From a virus: 35,781 bases of DNA. The notes beneath the pieces were generated by a model that saw only the letters and a list, made by a program, of their open reading frames with translations, was not told the DNA's origin and did no database searches. Where the stretch lies: IMG/VR virus record IMGVR_UViG_3300007735_000670, positions 1 through 35,781 of that record; one strand, 5' to 3'. The position numbers and the translations under genes are program-made. Position 1 is the stretch's first letter, and each line of letters begins with the position of its first letter. This document shows, one piece after another, positions 27,165 to 30,551 of this stretch.

Positions 27165-27367
27165 ACTGGAACTTAATTTGGACAGCAGTTGGTTTAGCAA
27201 TCGCTAGTTTTTTCATACTACCGTTTTATATTGCTATGCTCATTGCTTACAAGAAATCTATTATGAAAGTTGAACTTGAGTTTGTGGCTACTGCCAATCA
27301 GATTCAAAAGAAGGTGAAGTTTGATGATGCAGTCGAACGCCTGTTCGAAGAAGGAGAAGCGATATGA
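27161..27367 (+). CDS. small membrane protein
   Basis: A 68-residue protein with an N-terminal membrane helix (about residues 5-30, IWTAVGLAIASFFILPFYIAML) and a charged C-terminal helix (QIQKKVKFDDAVERLFEEGEAI). It starts at TTG, with a strong GAGAAGGAGAGG upstream and a TTGA overlap with the resolvase stop. Its 3' end carries a perfect LexA-type palindrome (27333-27348), encoding VERLFE. Function unknown. Confidence 0.65.
   Translation: MNWNLIWTAVGLAIASFFILPFYIAMLIAYKKSIMKVELEFVATANQIQKKVKFDDAVERLFEEGEAI
27333..27348 (+). promoter_or_regulatory. LexA/SOS-box-like palindrome inside coding sequence
   Basis: TCGAACGCCTGTTCGA is a perfect inverted repeat (TCGAAC-N4-GTTCGA), the form bound by LexA in actinobacteria and close to the Bacillus consensus CGAAC-N4-GTTCG. 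It lies 15 bases before the ATG of the helix-turn-helix gene at 27364. The position suits repression of that gene and the downstream methyltransferase genes, but the sequence also encodes protein and could be coincidental. Confidence 0.5.
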
Positions 27368-27663
27368 GTACGGTTATGGAAGCAACAGAGTTAGACGGCA
27401 AAGGGTTAGATGAGGTCAAACTCTTAACCGATGCTATCCGCACACACCAAACACAGATTCAGGATTTAGGAAAGCGTCGTAAGCAGTTGATTCTTCGACT
27501 ACGCAAACAGCGCATTACCTATCGTGAAATTGCTGAAGCAATGGGAGTATCCGAGCAGTTGATTTACAAAATTATTCGTAATGATATTTCTCGAACACCT
27601 GAGTACGATGCTGAAGGCAACCTAATTCGTAGACGAGGACGACCAGCGAAACCAGTTGTCTAA
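27364..27663 (+). CDS. small helix-turn-helix regulator
   Basis: A 99-residue protein. Residues about 30-75 contain a long charged helix and a helix-turn-helix of the sigma-70 region 4 / resolvase type (ITYREIAEAMGVSEQLIYKIIRND). The C-terminus has an AT-hook-like RRRGRPAKP. The ATGA overlap with the upstream stop and the shared base with the methyltransferase ATG (TAATG) put it in one translational unit. It may regulate the modification genes, and a LexA-like box just upstream could control it. Confidence 0.75.
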   Translation: MSTVMEATELDGKGLDEVKLLTDAIRTHQTQIQDLGKRRKQLILRLRKQRITYREIAEAMGVSEQLIYKIIRNDISRTPEYDAEGNLIRRRGRPAKPVV

Positions 27664-28733
27664 TGAAGTTCATAGAACTTTTTGCTGGTATCGGAGCCTT
27701 CCGCTTAGGACTTGAAAGAACAGGTCATGAGTGCGTGTGGGCTAATGAATGGCTTGAGAGACCTAGGAGTATTTATGCCCGAAACTTCGGAGAACAACCT
27801 GACGGACGAGATATTAGAGATGTTTCCGCTGGAGACCTTCCTGATGCCGACCTCCTCGTTGGAGGATTCCCTTGTGCGACTTTTTCAGTTGCAGGAAAGC
27901 GAACTGGCTTCTCCTTGGATGACACCCGCGGGACACTCGCTTTTGAAATGTTTAGACTCGCTCACGAAAAATCCATACCGTATCTCCTCTTTGAGAATGT
28001 CAAAGGACTCCTCAACCACGACGGAGGAAGAACCTTTGAAATCATCCTCGAAGTCTTGGATGGCTTGGGGTATGACTGTCAATGGGAATTGCTTGACAGC
28101 CAAAATTTCGGAGTCCCGCAACACCGAGAAAGGGTATTCCTTATCGGACATCTTAGAGGAAAACCCCGACCAAAAGTATTTCCTATCGGAGCAACAGGTA
28201 GAAGCAATGATGGCGCGAACTCGGAAGAACGAGAAGGAAGGCAGGGGCTTTTCTCCGACATTTCTCCGACCCTCGACGCTCACTACTACAAAGGAGGAAA
28301 CTCTCGACAGTATGTAGTTGAGCAGTTCATTCGTAGAGAGAATTCTTTTAGAACTTTCGAGAATGTGGCTCCAACACTATTGGCTCACATGGGAACAGGT
28401 GGAAACAATGTTCCATTTGTTAGACCAGTTCTTGATGTAGCAAGAGTAAACAAATCACCAAACGGGCGACTCATTAAAGATGATGGCGACCCGATGTACA
28501 CGATAACAGCGCAAGACCGCCACGGAGTTCAAATTGGGGATGAGGACGGCTTTGCGATTAGAAAACTAACTCCCTTGGAGTGCGAGCGCCTTCAAGGATT
28601 ACCCGATGGATGGACGGAGTTTTATCACGATGGACGACGAGTTTCAGATTCCGAAAGATACGAACGGTGCGGACGGACAATCACTATCCCAGTCGTGGAA
28701 GCGATTGGTAGAAGGCTTCATGAGTTCTACTGA
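27663..28733 (+). CDS. cytosine-C5 DNA methyltransferase, candidate carboxymethyltransferase
   Basis: A 356-residue protein with all main C5-methyltransferase motifs in order: I (ELFAGIGAFRLGLE, 5-18), IV (GGFPCATFSVAGKR, 67-80, catalytic C71), VI (ENVKGLL, 111-117), VIII (QHRERVF, 153-159), a ~140-residue target-recognition region, IX (RKLTPLECERLQGLPDGW, 300-317) and X (CGRTITIPVVEAIG, 336-349). Two positions are unusual: PCA for the normal PCQ, and R338 where the family nearly always has Asn (GN-S/A-V). Because the next gene is CmoA-like, I infer that it may use carboxy-SAM to make 5-carboxymethylcytosine. Ordinary methylation, for example to evade restriction, is the conservative reading. 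Confidence 0.9.
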   Translation: MKFIELFAGIGAFRLGLERTGHECVWANEWLERPRSIYARNFGEQPDGRDIRDVSAGDLPDADLLVGGFPCATFSVAGKRTGFSLDDTRGTLAFEMFRLAHEKSIPYLLFENVKGLLNHDGGRTFEIILEVLDGLGYDCQWELLDSQNFGVPQHRERVFLIGHLRGKPRPKVFPIGATGRSNDGANSEEREGRQGLFSDISPTLDAHYYKGGNSRQYVVEQFIRRENSFRTFENVAPTLLAHMGTGGNNVPFVRPVLDVARVNKSPNGRLIKDDGDPMYTITAQDRHGVQIGDEDGFAIRKLTPLECERLQGLPDGWTEFYHDGRRVSDSERYERCGRTITIPVVEAIGRRLHEFY

Positions 28734-29367
28734 GCCATTCTCATTCGAGACGATTGAGAACTTTGATGAACATATTGCACAATCAATTCCAAACTATCAC
28801 ACATTAACTGAGGCAATCTGTGACTTGAGTACATACTTCATGACTGAAGATACTCAGGTGATTGACCTTGGCTGTTCAACTGGAACGCTGTTAGAGCGAC
28901 TTCCTCATCGTGGCAAGAAAATCGGAATCGATATAGCCGATAACTTATTGCCTGAGTCCCATGATGAAACTATCTATGTTCGCAAAGACCTACGCGCTTT
29001 CAATGGATTCGGTAAGTCCAGTTTAATCATTTCAAACTTCACACTTCAGTTCTTGCCCTATGAGGACAGACCGCGCATCCTCGAGGTCATCTATGAATCT
29101 CTAGTTGAGGGTGGGGCTTTTATATGGGCAGAGAAGGTACGAGAAGAATCGGGCGAACTTGAGCAGGTAATCAACGGCGCTCACTATGACTTCAAGCGTA
29201 AGTCTTTTAGCCCTGAACAGATACTTAACAAAGAGCGCGACCTTCGACCTATGATGAAGGTGAACTCATCAATGCGAAATCAGATATTGGCAGAGAACGC
29301 AGGGTTCACAGTAGGCACAATGTTTTGGAAGTTCTTCAACTTCGAGGCGTGGATATACATTAAATGA
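28720..29367 (+). CDS. cmoA: CmoA-like carboxy-S-adenosyl-L-methionine synthase
   Basis: A 215-residue class I SAM-binding protein that follows E. coli CmoA (247 residues) along its length. Landmarks are FDEHIAQSIPNYHTLTEAI (15-33), the SAM loop VIDLGCSTGTLL (47-58), SNFTLQFLPYEDR (105-117), WAEKV (136-140) and HYDFKR (155-160). R173 falls at the place of the CmoA Arg199 reported to hold the carboxylate of carboxy-SAM. CmoA uses SAM and prephenate. CmoB, which passes the group to tRNA, is not encoded here. I chose the ATG at 28720 (AGAAGG upstream, 14-base overlap with the methyltransferase) over the one at 28606. Confidence 0.85.
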   Translation: MSSTEPFSFETIENFDEHIAQSIPNYHTLTEAICDLSTYFMTEDTQVIDLGCSTGTLLERLPHRGKKIGIDIADNLLPESHDETIYVRKDLRAFNGFGKSSLIISNFTLQFLPYEDRPRILEVIYESLVEGGAFIWAEKVREESGELEQVINGAHYDFKRKSFSPEQILNKERDLRPMMKVNSSMRNQILAENAGFTVGTMFWKFFNFEAWIYIK

Positions 29368-30551
29368 AAGCAAAGATAAAAGTTGGGCAGGTTGCCTCAG
29401 TTGCTATCTCATCGCTTGAGGCATATCCAACAAACCCTCGTCGTGGTGATATTGAAGCGATTGCTCAATCACTTAAAGCCCATGGGCAGTACAGACCGAT
29501 TGTGGTTCAGTACGGCTCAAACTTTATCTTGGCGGGAAACCACACATACAAAGCGGCAAAGAAACTTGGCTGGAAGAAAATCAAGATTACTTATGTAGAT
29601 GTAGATGAAGAGAGCGCTCGCAAGATTGTTTTGGCTGATAATCGCCTGACTGACCTAGCAAGTTACAACGAGCCTCTTCTCAAATCTCTCCTTAACGCTT
29701 TACCTGAACTTGAGGGTACGGGCTTTACTCAATCTGAGGTTGAGACTTTAGATAGATTGATAAGCGGTAAAGACAAAGACAACATAACCGACTCTAAGCC
29801 TTTACCTAGTGACCCTGAAGTAAAGATTAGCGCTTGGAAGTTTACAGTCGAGATGGAGGCTTACAAGGCTTGGAAAGAGCAACTATACGCGGAGGCTCCG
29901 ACAAAGCAGAAAGCAATCAAAGCAATCAAGGAGCGCCTAGGTTTTCCTGAGCGTAAGCCCGTCGAGCCTGACACACAGCCTGAGCGAAGCGAGAGTTCAC
30001 CCGAGGACATTGAGACAGTTGCAATCAATGAGATTAAAGTTCACCCTCTCAACCCGCGTGAGGGCGATGTAGGCACAATCATTCAGTCCCTTGAGGTAAT
30101 GGGTCAGTACCGACCTATCGTGGTCAATAAGCGCACCAAGCACATTCTTTCGGGGAATCATACTTATCAAGGAGCAGTTCAATTAGGGTGGGAAAAGATT
30201 GCCGTGCATTGGGTTGATGTTGATGATGTGGAGGAAATCAAAATTCTTATCGTCGATAACCGAACTTCTGACTTGGCAACTTACGACCCACAGGAGTTAA
30301 ACAAACTTCTAACCAGTACGGGCTTGCGGGGAACAGGCTTTACTGCTGAAGAGGTTGCTGAAATCTTGGGCGGGGGAAAATCCAAGCCTGGGCATATTCC
30401 TGTGGGTCGTACAACTATCCGAGTAGGCGAACATTCAATGCGAGTTCACACAGAGGACTTAAACGAATGGGCGAATTCTATTTATGGCTGGAAAGATATT
30501 GCTGAGTTATTATTTATACCTATTGAGGCTTGTACAACCGAGGTAGAATAA
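29364..30551 (+). CDS. tandem ParB-like domain protein
   Basis: A 395-residue protein with two ParB N-terminal-like domains. Domain one has NPRRGDIEAIAQSLKAHGQYRPIVV, then ILAGNHTYKAAKKLGW and VLADNRLTDLASY (25-~115). Domain two has NPREGDVGTIIQSLEVMGQYRPIVV, then ILSGNHTYQGAVQLGW and VDNRTSDLATY (228-~315). GNHTY stands where chromosomal ParB has GERR. Between them is a helical and Pro/Glu-rich linker. The fold family includes CTP hydrolases, nucleases and kinases. It is coupled to the cmoA-like gene by an ATGA overlap. Its role could be DNA binding, packaging marking or base hypermodification; none is shown. Confidence 0.8.
   Translation: MKAKIKVGQVASVAISSLEAYPTNPRRGDIEAIAQSLKAHGQYRPIVVQYGSNFILAGNHTYKAAKKLGWKKIKITYVDVDEESARKIVLADNRLTDLASYNEPLLKSLLNALPELEGTGFTQSEVETLDRLISGKDKDNITDSKPLPSDPEVKISAWKFTVEMEAYKAWKEQLYAEAPTKQKAIKAIKERLGFPERKPVEPDTQPERSESSPEDIETVAINEIKVHPLNPREGDVGTIIQSLEVMGQYRPIVVNKRTKHILSGNHTYQGAVQLGWEKIAVHWVDVDDVEEIKILIVDNRTSDLATYDPQELNKLLTSTGLRGTGFTAEEVAEILGGGKSKPGHIPVGRTTIRVGEHSMRVHTEDLNEWANSIYGWKDIAELLFIPIEACTTEVE

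Follow-up and report, generated by a model that had tools for sequence, protein, structure and literature searches.

Does a phage that encodes a cytosine-C5 methyltransferase (MTase) together with a CmoA-like protein place a carboxymethyl group on its DNA? The question is raised by a gene pair in virus record IMGVR_UViG_3300007735_000670, whose 35,781 bases were analysed in full and are referred to here as the window. A preliminary description of this DNA proposed that the pair makes 5-carboxymethylcytosine (5cxmC), as a rare natural use of carboxy-SAM (Cx-SAM). The idea was right in kind but is no longer new, because natural DNA carboxymethylation by the CmoA–CmoX system of Synechococcus phage S-B43 was published in December 2025 (Yang et al. 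2025, PMC12783734). In that system, SpCmoA synthesises Cx-SAM, SpCmoX forms 5cxmC at GC and gives resistance to HhaI, and SpCmoY adds glycine to 5cxmC (PMC12783734). In the crystal structure of CmoX (8YF3), Arg350 replaces Asn304 of HhaI and contacts the Cx-SAM carboxylate; wild-type CmoX uses only Cx-SAM, and the R350N variant is inactive (PMC12783734). A filter on SPPC and R350 retained 5,615 CmoX candidates, and the paper, at least in its main text, makes no mention of GFPC (PMC12783734). The chemistry considered here is therefore already published; the enzyme lineage is new.

A C5-methyltransferase gene overlapping a CmoA-like gene

The MTase ORF encodes 356 amino acids (Table 1), of which residues 1–352 are covered by PF00145 (E = 6e-71), and it also matches NCBIfam dcm (E = 8e-77). 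Motifs I, IV (PC), VI (ENV) and VIII (QxRxR) of HhaI-like C5-MTases are present, and alignment places the catalytic residues at Cys71, Glu111 and Arg157, confirming the full cytosine-C5 methyltransferase first described at this position. In the PDB, M.HhaI was matched at 1e-46 versus 7e-11 for CmoX 8YF3, to which the identity is ~30%. An AlphaFold model built from 20 sequences was weak (pLDDT 56). A 132-aa minus-strand ORF also lies inside the MTase gene.

Table 1. Features of the MTase–CmoA-like locus, in window coordinates
Feature	Position	Strand	Basis
Small HTH protein gene, directly upstream	27364..27663	+	ORF; HTH_23 E=1e-8; conserved neighbour in related contigs
Cytosine-C5 methyltransferase homologue, proposed DNA carboxymethyltransferase (HhaI-like lineage)	27663..28733	+	ORF, PF00145, NCBIfam dcm, PDB match
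Motif IV GGFPCATFS (Cys71 nucleophile; Ala72 in place of usual Gln after Cys)	27861..27887	+	alignment
Variable target-recognition region, three 'T-(L/I)' type units (SPTLDAHYY, APTLLAHMG, YTITAQDRH)	28191..28559	+	alignment of relatives
Arg338 codon CGG, motif X 'ERCGRTITIPV' (M.HhaI N304 / CmoX R350 position)	28674..28676	+	alignment
CmoA-like carboxy-SAM synthase (putative), 14-bp overlap with MTase	28720..29367	+	ORF, NCBIfam, structures, tree
Protein with two ParB-N-like repeats, directly downstream, 4-bp overlap	29364..30551	+	PF02195; phrog_8071 E=5e-167

The second ORF encodes 215 residues; 17 relatives have an invariant Met1, which supports its ATG start. NCBIfam CmoA matches residues 11–214 (E = 1.3e-29), bearing out the earlier remark that the gene follows CmoA along its whole length. 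Sequence matches to the solved CmoA structures 1im8, 4iwn and 4gek ranged from 4e-24 to 2e-20, and the best match of the predicted fold was 4iwn, E. coli CmoA with bound Cx-SAM. The score of 101–104 bits against TIGR00740 does not reach the curated cut-off of 193 bits, but this cut-off is not decisive, because the biochemically proven SpCmoA also falls below it (116 bits); we therefore dropped the shortfall as evidence against CmoA identity. For residue comparisons, E. coli CmoA was represented by an approximate sequence (248 letters versus 247 for the protein), which served only as alignment reference and outgroup and on which the binding-site positions fall on the expected residues. On this approximate reference, the binding residue R199 aligns with a Glu in the window CmoA, and an Arg lies four residues on (R176). 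The same arrangement was common to the aligned CmoAs of S-B43, S-CRM01, the staphylococcal phages and the window phage (window residues 171–176), the proven SpCmoA included.

The two ORFs overlap by 14 bp (28720–28733), as originally reported. Among related phage contigs, the CmoA start overlaps the MTase by exactly 14 bp in 63 of 63 distinct MTase genes with downstream sequence, a recurrence that argues against a chance arrangement. The preliminary description had also proposed a search of sequence collections for the pair, and viral contig scans with either protein returned the same pair. A scan of genome contigs with the MTase yielded one relative only (39%), in a Chitinophagales MAG.

An arginine at the motif X position

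Motif X of the MTase is ERYERCGRTITIPV, in which Arg338 replaces the Asn of the usual GN(S/A)V. This key residue, absent from the preliminary description, occupies the position of a near-invariant Asn (N304 in M.HhaI), so that the window MTase lacks the Asn of methylating C5-MTases, and it aligned on R350 of SpCmoX. Residues F7, E29, W30, D50 and C71 of the window MTase likewise aligned on F25, E47, F48, D69 and C98 of SpCmoX. The Arg is present in all 64 distinct MTase C-termini, of which 63 had the downstream sequence used for the overlap count, and the motif IV sequence was identical in 62 of 62 readable copies. Among comparison C5-MTases without an adjacent cmoA, nine carry Asn at this position (Streptococcus Javan64, MM1 and 11865; Lactobacillus SAC12B; Citrobacter Margaery; ct2os315; Parageobacillus; Bacillus SPBc2; and Fusobacterium Fnu1) and two, from Bacteroidota phages, carry Met.

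Every Arg lineage has a CmoA in the same genome; for the Arg enzymes of Streptomyces phage TurkishDelight and Erwinia phage SNUABM_16, this is a CmoA match. Not every CmoA partner has the Arg: CmoA-linked C5-MTases of staphylococcal phages carry Gly, not Arg or Lys, at this position (L085, 8669–9667, and L086, 9488–10495, one of them with a CmoY homologue); if these enzymes use Cx-SAM, the carboxylate must be bound in another way. Nor is Arg at this position alone proof of Cx-SAM use, because mammalian DNMT3A has Arg there (GRSWSVP) and uses SAM.

The linked CmoA homologue and the Arg at the HhaI N304 position are both hallmarks of the CmoA–CmoX type. The window motif IV, GGFPCATFS, does not pass the SPPC filter, which places the enzyme outside CmoX as defined, although it very probably works like CmoX.

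Evolution of the two enzymes

A maximum-likelihood MTase tree was built without the trait columns Arg338 and Ala72 and without the Chitinophagales relative, represented by only a 116-aa fragment. The window group fell with Asn-type GFPC enzymes, and CmoX fell with SPPC enzymes. With the trait columns excluded, a single clade for all Arg enzymes was rejected (dlnL 88.9, AU p = 5e-51); the Arg enzymes thus have more than one origin, and the window MTase does not share with SpCmoX a descent that excludes methylating enzymes. The exact placement of ct2os315, Fnu1 and the Erwinia enzyme is unsure because of several long branches. In the CmoA tree, the window protein is sister to SpCmoA and S-CRM01 CmoA (support 99/98). 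Because its closest kin include the proven S-B43 CmoA, the synthase seems to have been retained, whereas the partner MTase had a second origin. Most simply, a single phage CmoA lineage joined up with two different C5-MTase lineages that each acquired the Arg, and the window MTase appears to be a second, independently derived carboxymethyltransferase lineage.

Neighbourhood, target recognition and host

The stop of the HTH gene shares one base with the MTase start, placing both in the same operon. A ParB-like gene lies at most 2.2 kb downstream in 43 of 47 related loci, and ParBc genes are frequent around published CmoX loci too (PMC12783734). HTH, RusA-like, HNH, Erf-like and terminase neighbours are kept in most relatives. 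In L130, L142 and L143, the pair adjoins unrelated, glycosyltransferase-like genes (judged by eye), so it appears to move as a unit. One related contig, G002, has a 127-base end overlap through which the MTase reads intact, indicating a complete circular genome of ~58.7 kb. No ligase of the CmoY fold (Asn_synthase type, PF00733), which is usual but not essential for CmoX, was found in 16 related contigs including this complete genome, in a search that recovered the S-B43 positive control, and a comparison of conserved neighbours across related loci showed no ligase-like gene. CmoB was absent from 10 of 10 records searched, which disfavours a tRNA role for the CmoA-like protein.

In the relatives, the region between motifs VIII and IX holds two to four short units built around a T-L/I/V core, which together span 87–162 residues. 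These units differ in number and order between close relatives (the window, L133, L139, L142, L144 and L050), and L139 and L144 have the same short version yet different CmoA genes. The layout resembles that of the multi-specific C5-MTases of SP-beta type phages, which suggests an exchangeable, possibly multiple, target specificity.

The window phage is a freshwater phage. Its terminase is nearest to those of Arthrobacter phages of ~60 kb (52%), making an actinobacterial host likely. The curated CmoA cut-off was passed by only 1 of 14 control genomes; if actinobacterial hosts have no CmoA of their own, the phage would have to supply one.

An overlapping +1-frame ORF in the MTase gene

The MTase gene contains a conserved +1-frame ORF of 201 aa (27712–28317, plus strand; ATG at 27775), which matches phrog_16143 and stays free of stops over at least 172 codons in 64 of 64 distinct copies. 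Across 39 non-redundant copies, it had 0 stops versus 159 expected from synonymous codon usage, and main-frame divergence at fourfold sites was 0.48–0.60 at the start of the gene, 0.13–0.38 within the ORF and 0.45–0.53 downstream. Similar stretches occur in 197 phage records; those checked for frame sit within a C5-MTase gene in its +1 frame, and in the record of phage MM1 1998 the nested ORF carries the annotation 'C5 methyltransferase beta subunit'. The similarity score between the window and MM1 ORFs was 252, compared with a mean of 88.7 (sd 25, maximum 156) over 200 codon shuffles. Shuffling the codons of the window gene alone gave an ORF this long in 32 of 2,000 draws, so the case rests on conservation and not on length. 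The ORF is probably a genuine gene overlapping those of HhaI-like phage MTases, a matter apart from Cx-SAM use.

Proposed chemistry and alternatives

From the sequence we infer the following course for both enzyme activities, the product, its target motifs and its protective effect. The CmoA-like protein would make Cx-SAM from host SAM and prephenate. The MTase, as a HhaI-type C5 enzyme, would flip cytosine out, with Cys71 attacking C6 and Arg338 binding the carboxylate of Cx-SAM, and the carboxymethyl group would be moved to C5, yielding 5cxmC at short motifs read by the target-recognition units. The bulky, negatively charged mark would then block host restriction enzymes. Because no CmoY-type ligase was found in the 16 contigs, free 5cxmC is the probable final product and may be the final mark.

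We conclude with considerable confidence that the pair is a phage module for DNA carboxymethylation that makes 5cxmC, a second lineage beside CmoX that draws on the same CmoA lineage. Support for the original proposal of this product is strong, if indirect: Arg338 falls at the CmoX R350 position, the CmoA is sister to that of S-B43, the linkage is fixed in 63 of 63 genes, the Arg enzymes are spread over more than one clade, and a CmoA accompanies each of their lineages in the genome. The alternative that weighs most is that 5cxmC is a mere intermediate, an unrecognised ligase (a phage gene of another family or a host enzyme) attaching an amine to the carboxyl group in the way that CmoY attaches glycine. 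Virion DNA of S-B43 showed only the glycine amide, and AMP-forming ligases occur in many published CmoX contigs (PMC12783734); in TurkishDelight, moreover, a glutamine-amidotransferase-type protein separates the Arg enzyme from CmoA. Given that neither the 16 contigs nor the conserved neighbours yielded a ligase candidate of the kinds sought, we regard an amide end product as possible but doubtful.

Much less probable is an ordinary 5-methylcytosine methyltransferase accompanied by a CmoA-like protein with a separate role, as a drain on SAM or prephenate or in tRNA modification. The MTase fold is that of a standard HhaI-like enzyme, and DNMT3A uses SAM with an Arg at the same position; the fixed overlapping linkage, the absence of CmoB from the records searched, the Arg where ordinary relatives carry Asn, and the repeated pairing of Arg and CmoA across separate lineages all speak against it. 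We give a marginally smaller chance to the view that the window MTase simply belongs to the published CmoX family and that its motif IV has diverged. It shares with CmoX the Arg, the CmoA lineage and a ParBc neighbour, but its low identity to CmoX, its closer match to HhaI and the rejection of one Arg clade favour a separate carboxymethyltransferase lineage, as does the long +1-frame ORF, which is common to Asn-type streptococcal and Parageobacillus MTase genes and has no long counterpart in CmoX genes.

Discussion

Compared with the CmoA–CmoX–CmoY locus of S-B43 (L082), the window has the same CmoA lineage, Arg at the HhaI N304 position, ParBc genes and no CmoB, but it pairs a GFPCA enzyme of another C5-MTase lineage, not an SPPC CmoX, with its CmoA. 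The gene order is X–A with the 14-bp overlap, as opposed to A–Y–X; the CmoY of S-B43 has no counterpart found in the window group; the target-recognition region is variable and multi-unit, unlike that of S-B43; and the host is probably actinobacterial, not cyanobacterial. M.HhaI and HhaI-like phage C5-MTases (Streptococcus Javan64 and MM1; Parageobacillus phage) share fold and motifs with the window enzyme and provide its closest solved structures, and the phage relatives share the long +1-frame ORF, but these enzymes keep the motif X Asn and the Gln that follows the catalytic Cys; the window has Arg and Ala instead, and a linked CmoA gene. Engineered M.MpeI N374K, which makes 5cxmC (as cited in PMC12783734), has a basic residue at the same motif X position, although there it is an engineered Lys in an enzyme with a CG motif and no dedicated synthase, whereas the window Arg is natural. 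The bacterial CmoA/CmoB pathway to cmo5U in tRNA uses the same CmoA fold and family (4iwn, 4gek and 1im8); the phage has no CmoB in the records searched, and the proposed acceptor is DNA cytosine. TurkishDelight (genes 121–125; L234, 1778–6806) similarly brings together two ParB-like genes, an Arg-type C5-MTase and a CmoA-like methyltransferase in a compact cluster but differs in its SPPC-type enzyme and its glutamine-amidotransferase-type protein, and this cluster is a candidate carboxamide hypermodification system.

The fullest account, to which we assign roughly even chances, is that DNA carboxymethylation arose at least twice: a HhaI-type lineage outside the SPPC filter would have been converted by Asn-to-Arg and Gln-to-Ala changes, the latter beside the nucleophile, with the same CmoA lineage, exchangeable target-recognition units, free 5cxmC as the final mark, freshwater and probably actinobacterial hosts, and a second gene in the +1 frame. 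A newly discovered natural DNA base would be extended beyond the CmoX lineage to a second one, to phages whose hosts are probably actinobacterial and to a different design of target recognition. The locus would also provide independent evolutionary evidence that one basic motif X residue and a nearby CmoA mark the switch from methyl to carboxymethyl transfer, and the published SPPC-filtered census would miss part of the diversity. GFPC-type carboxymethyltransferases, possibly with other target motifs, may serve as tools for DNA labelling and sequencing chemistry.
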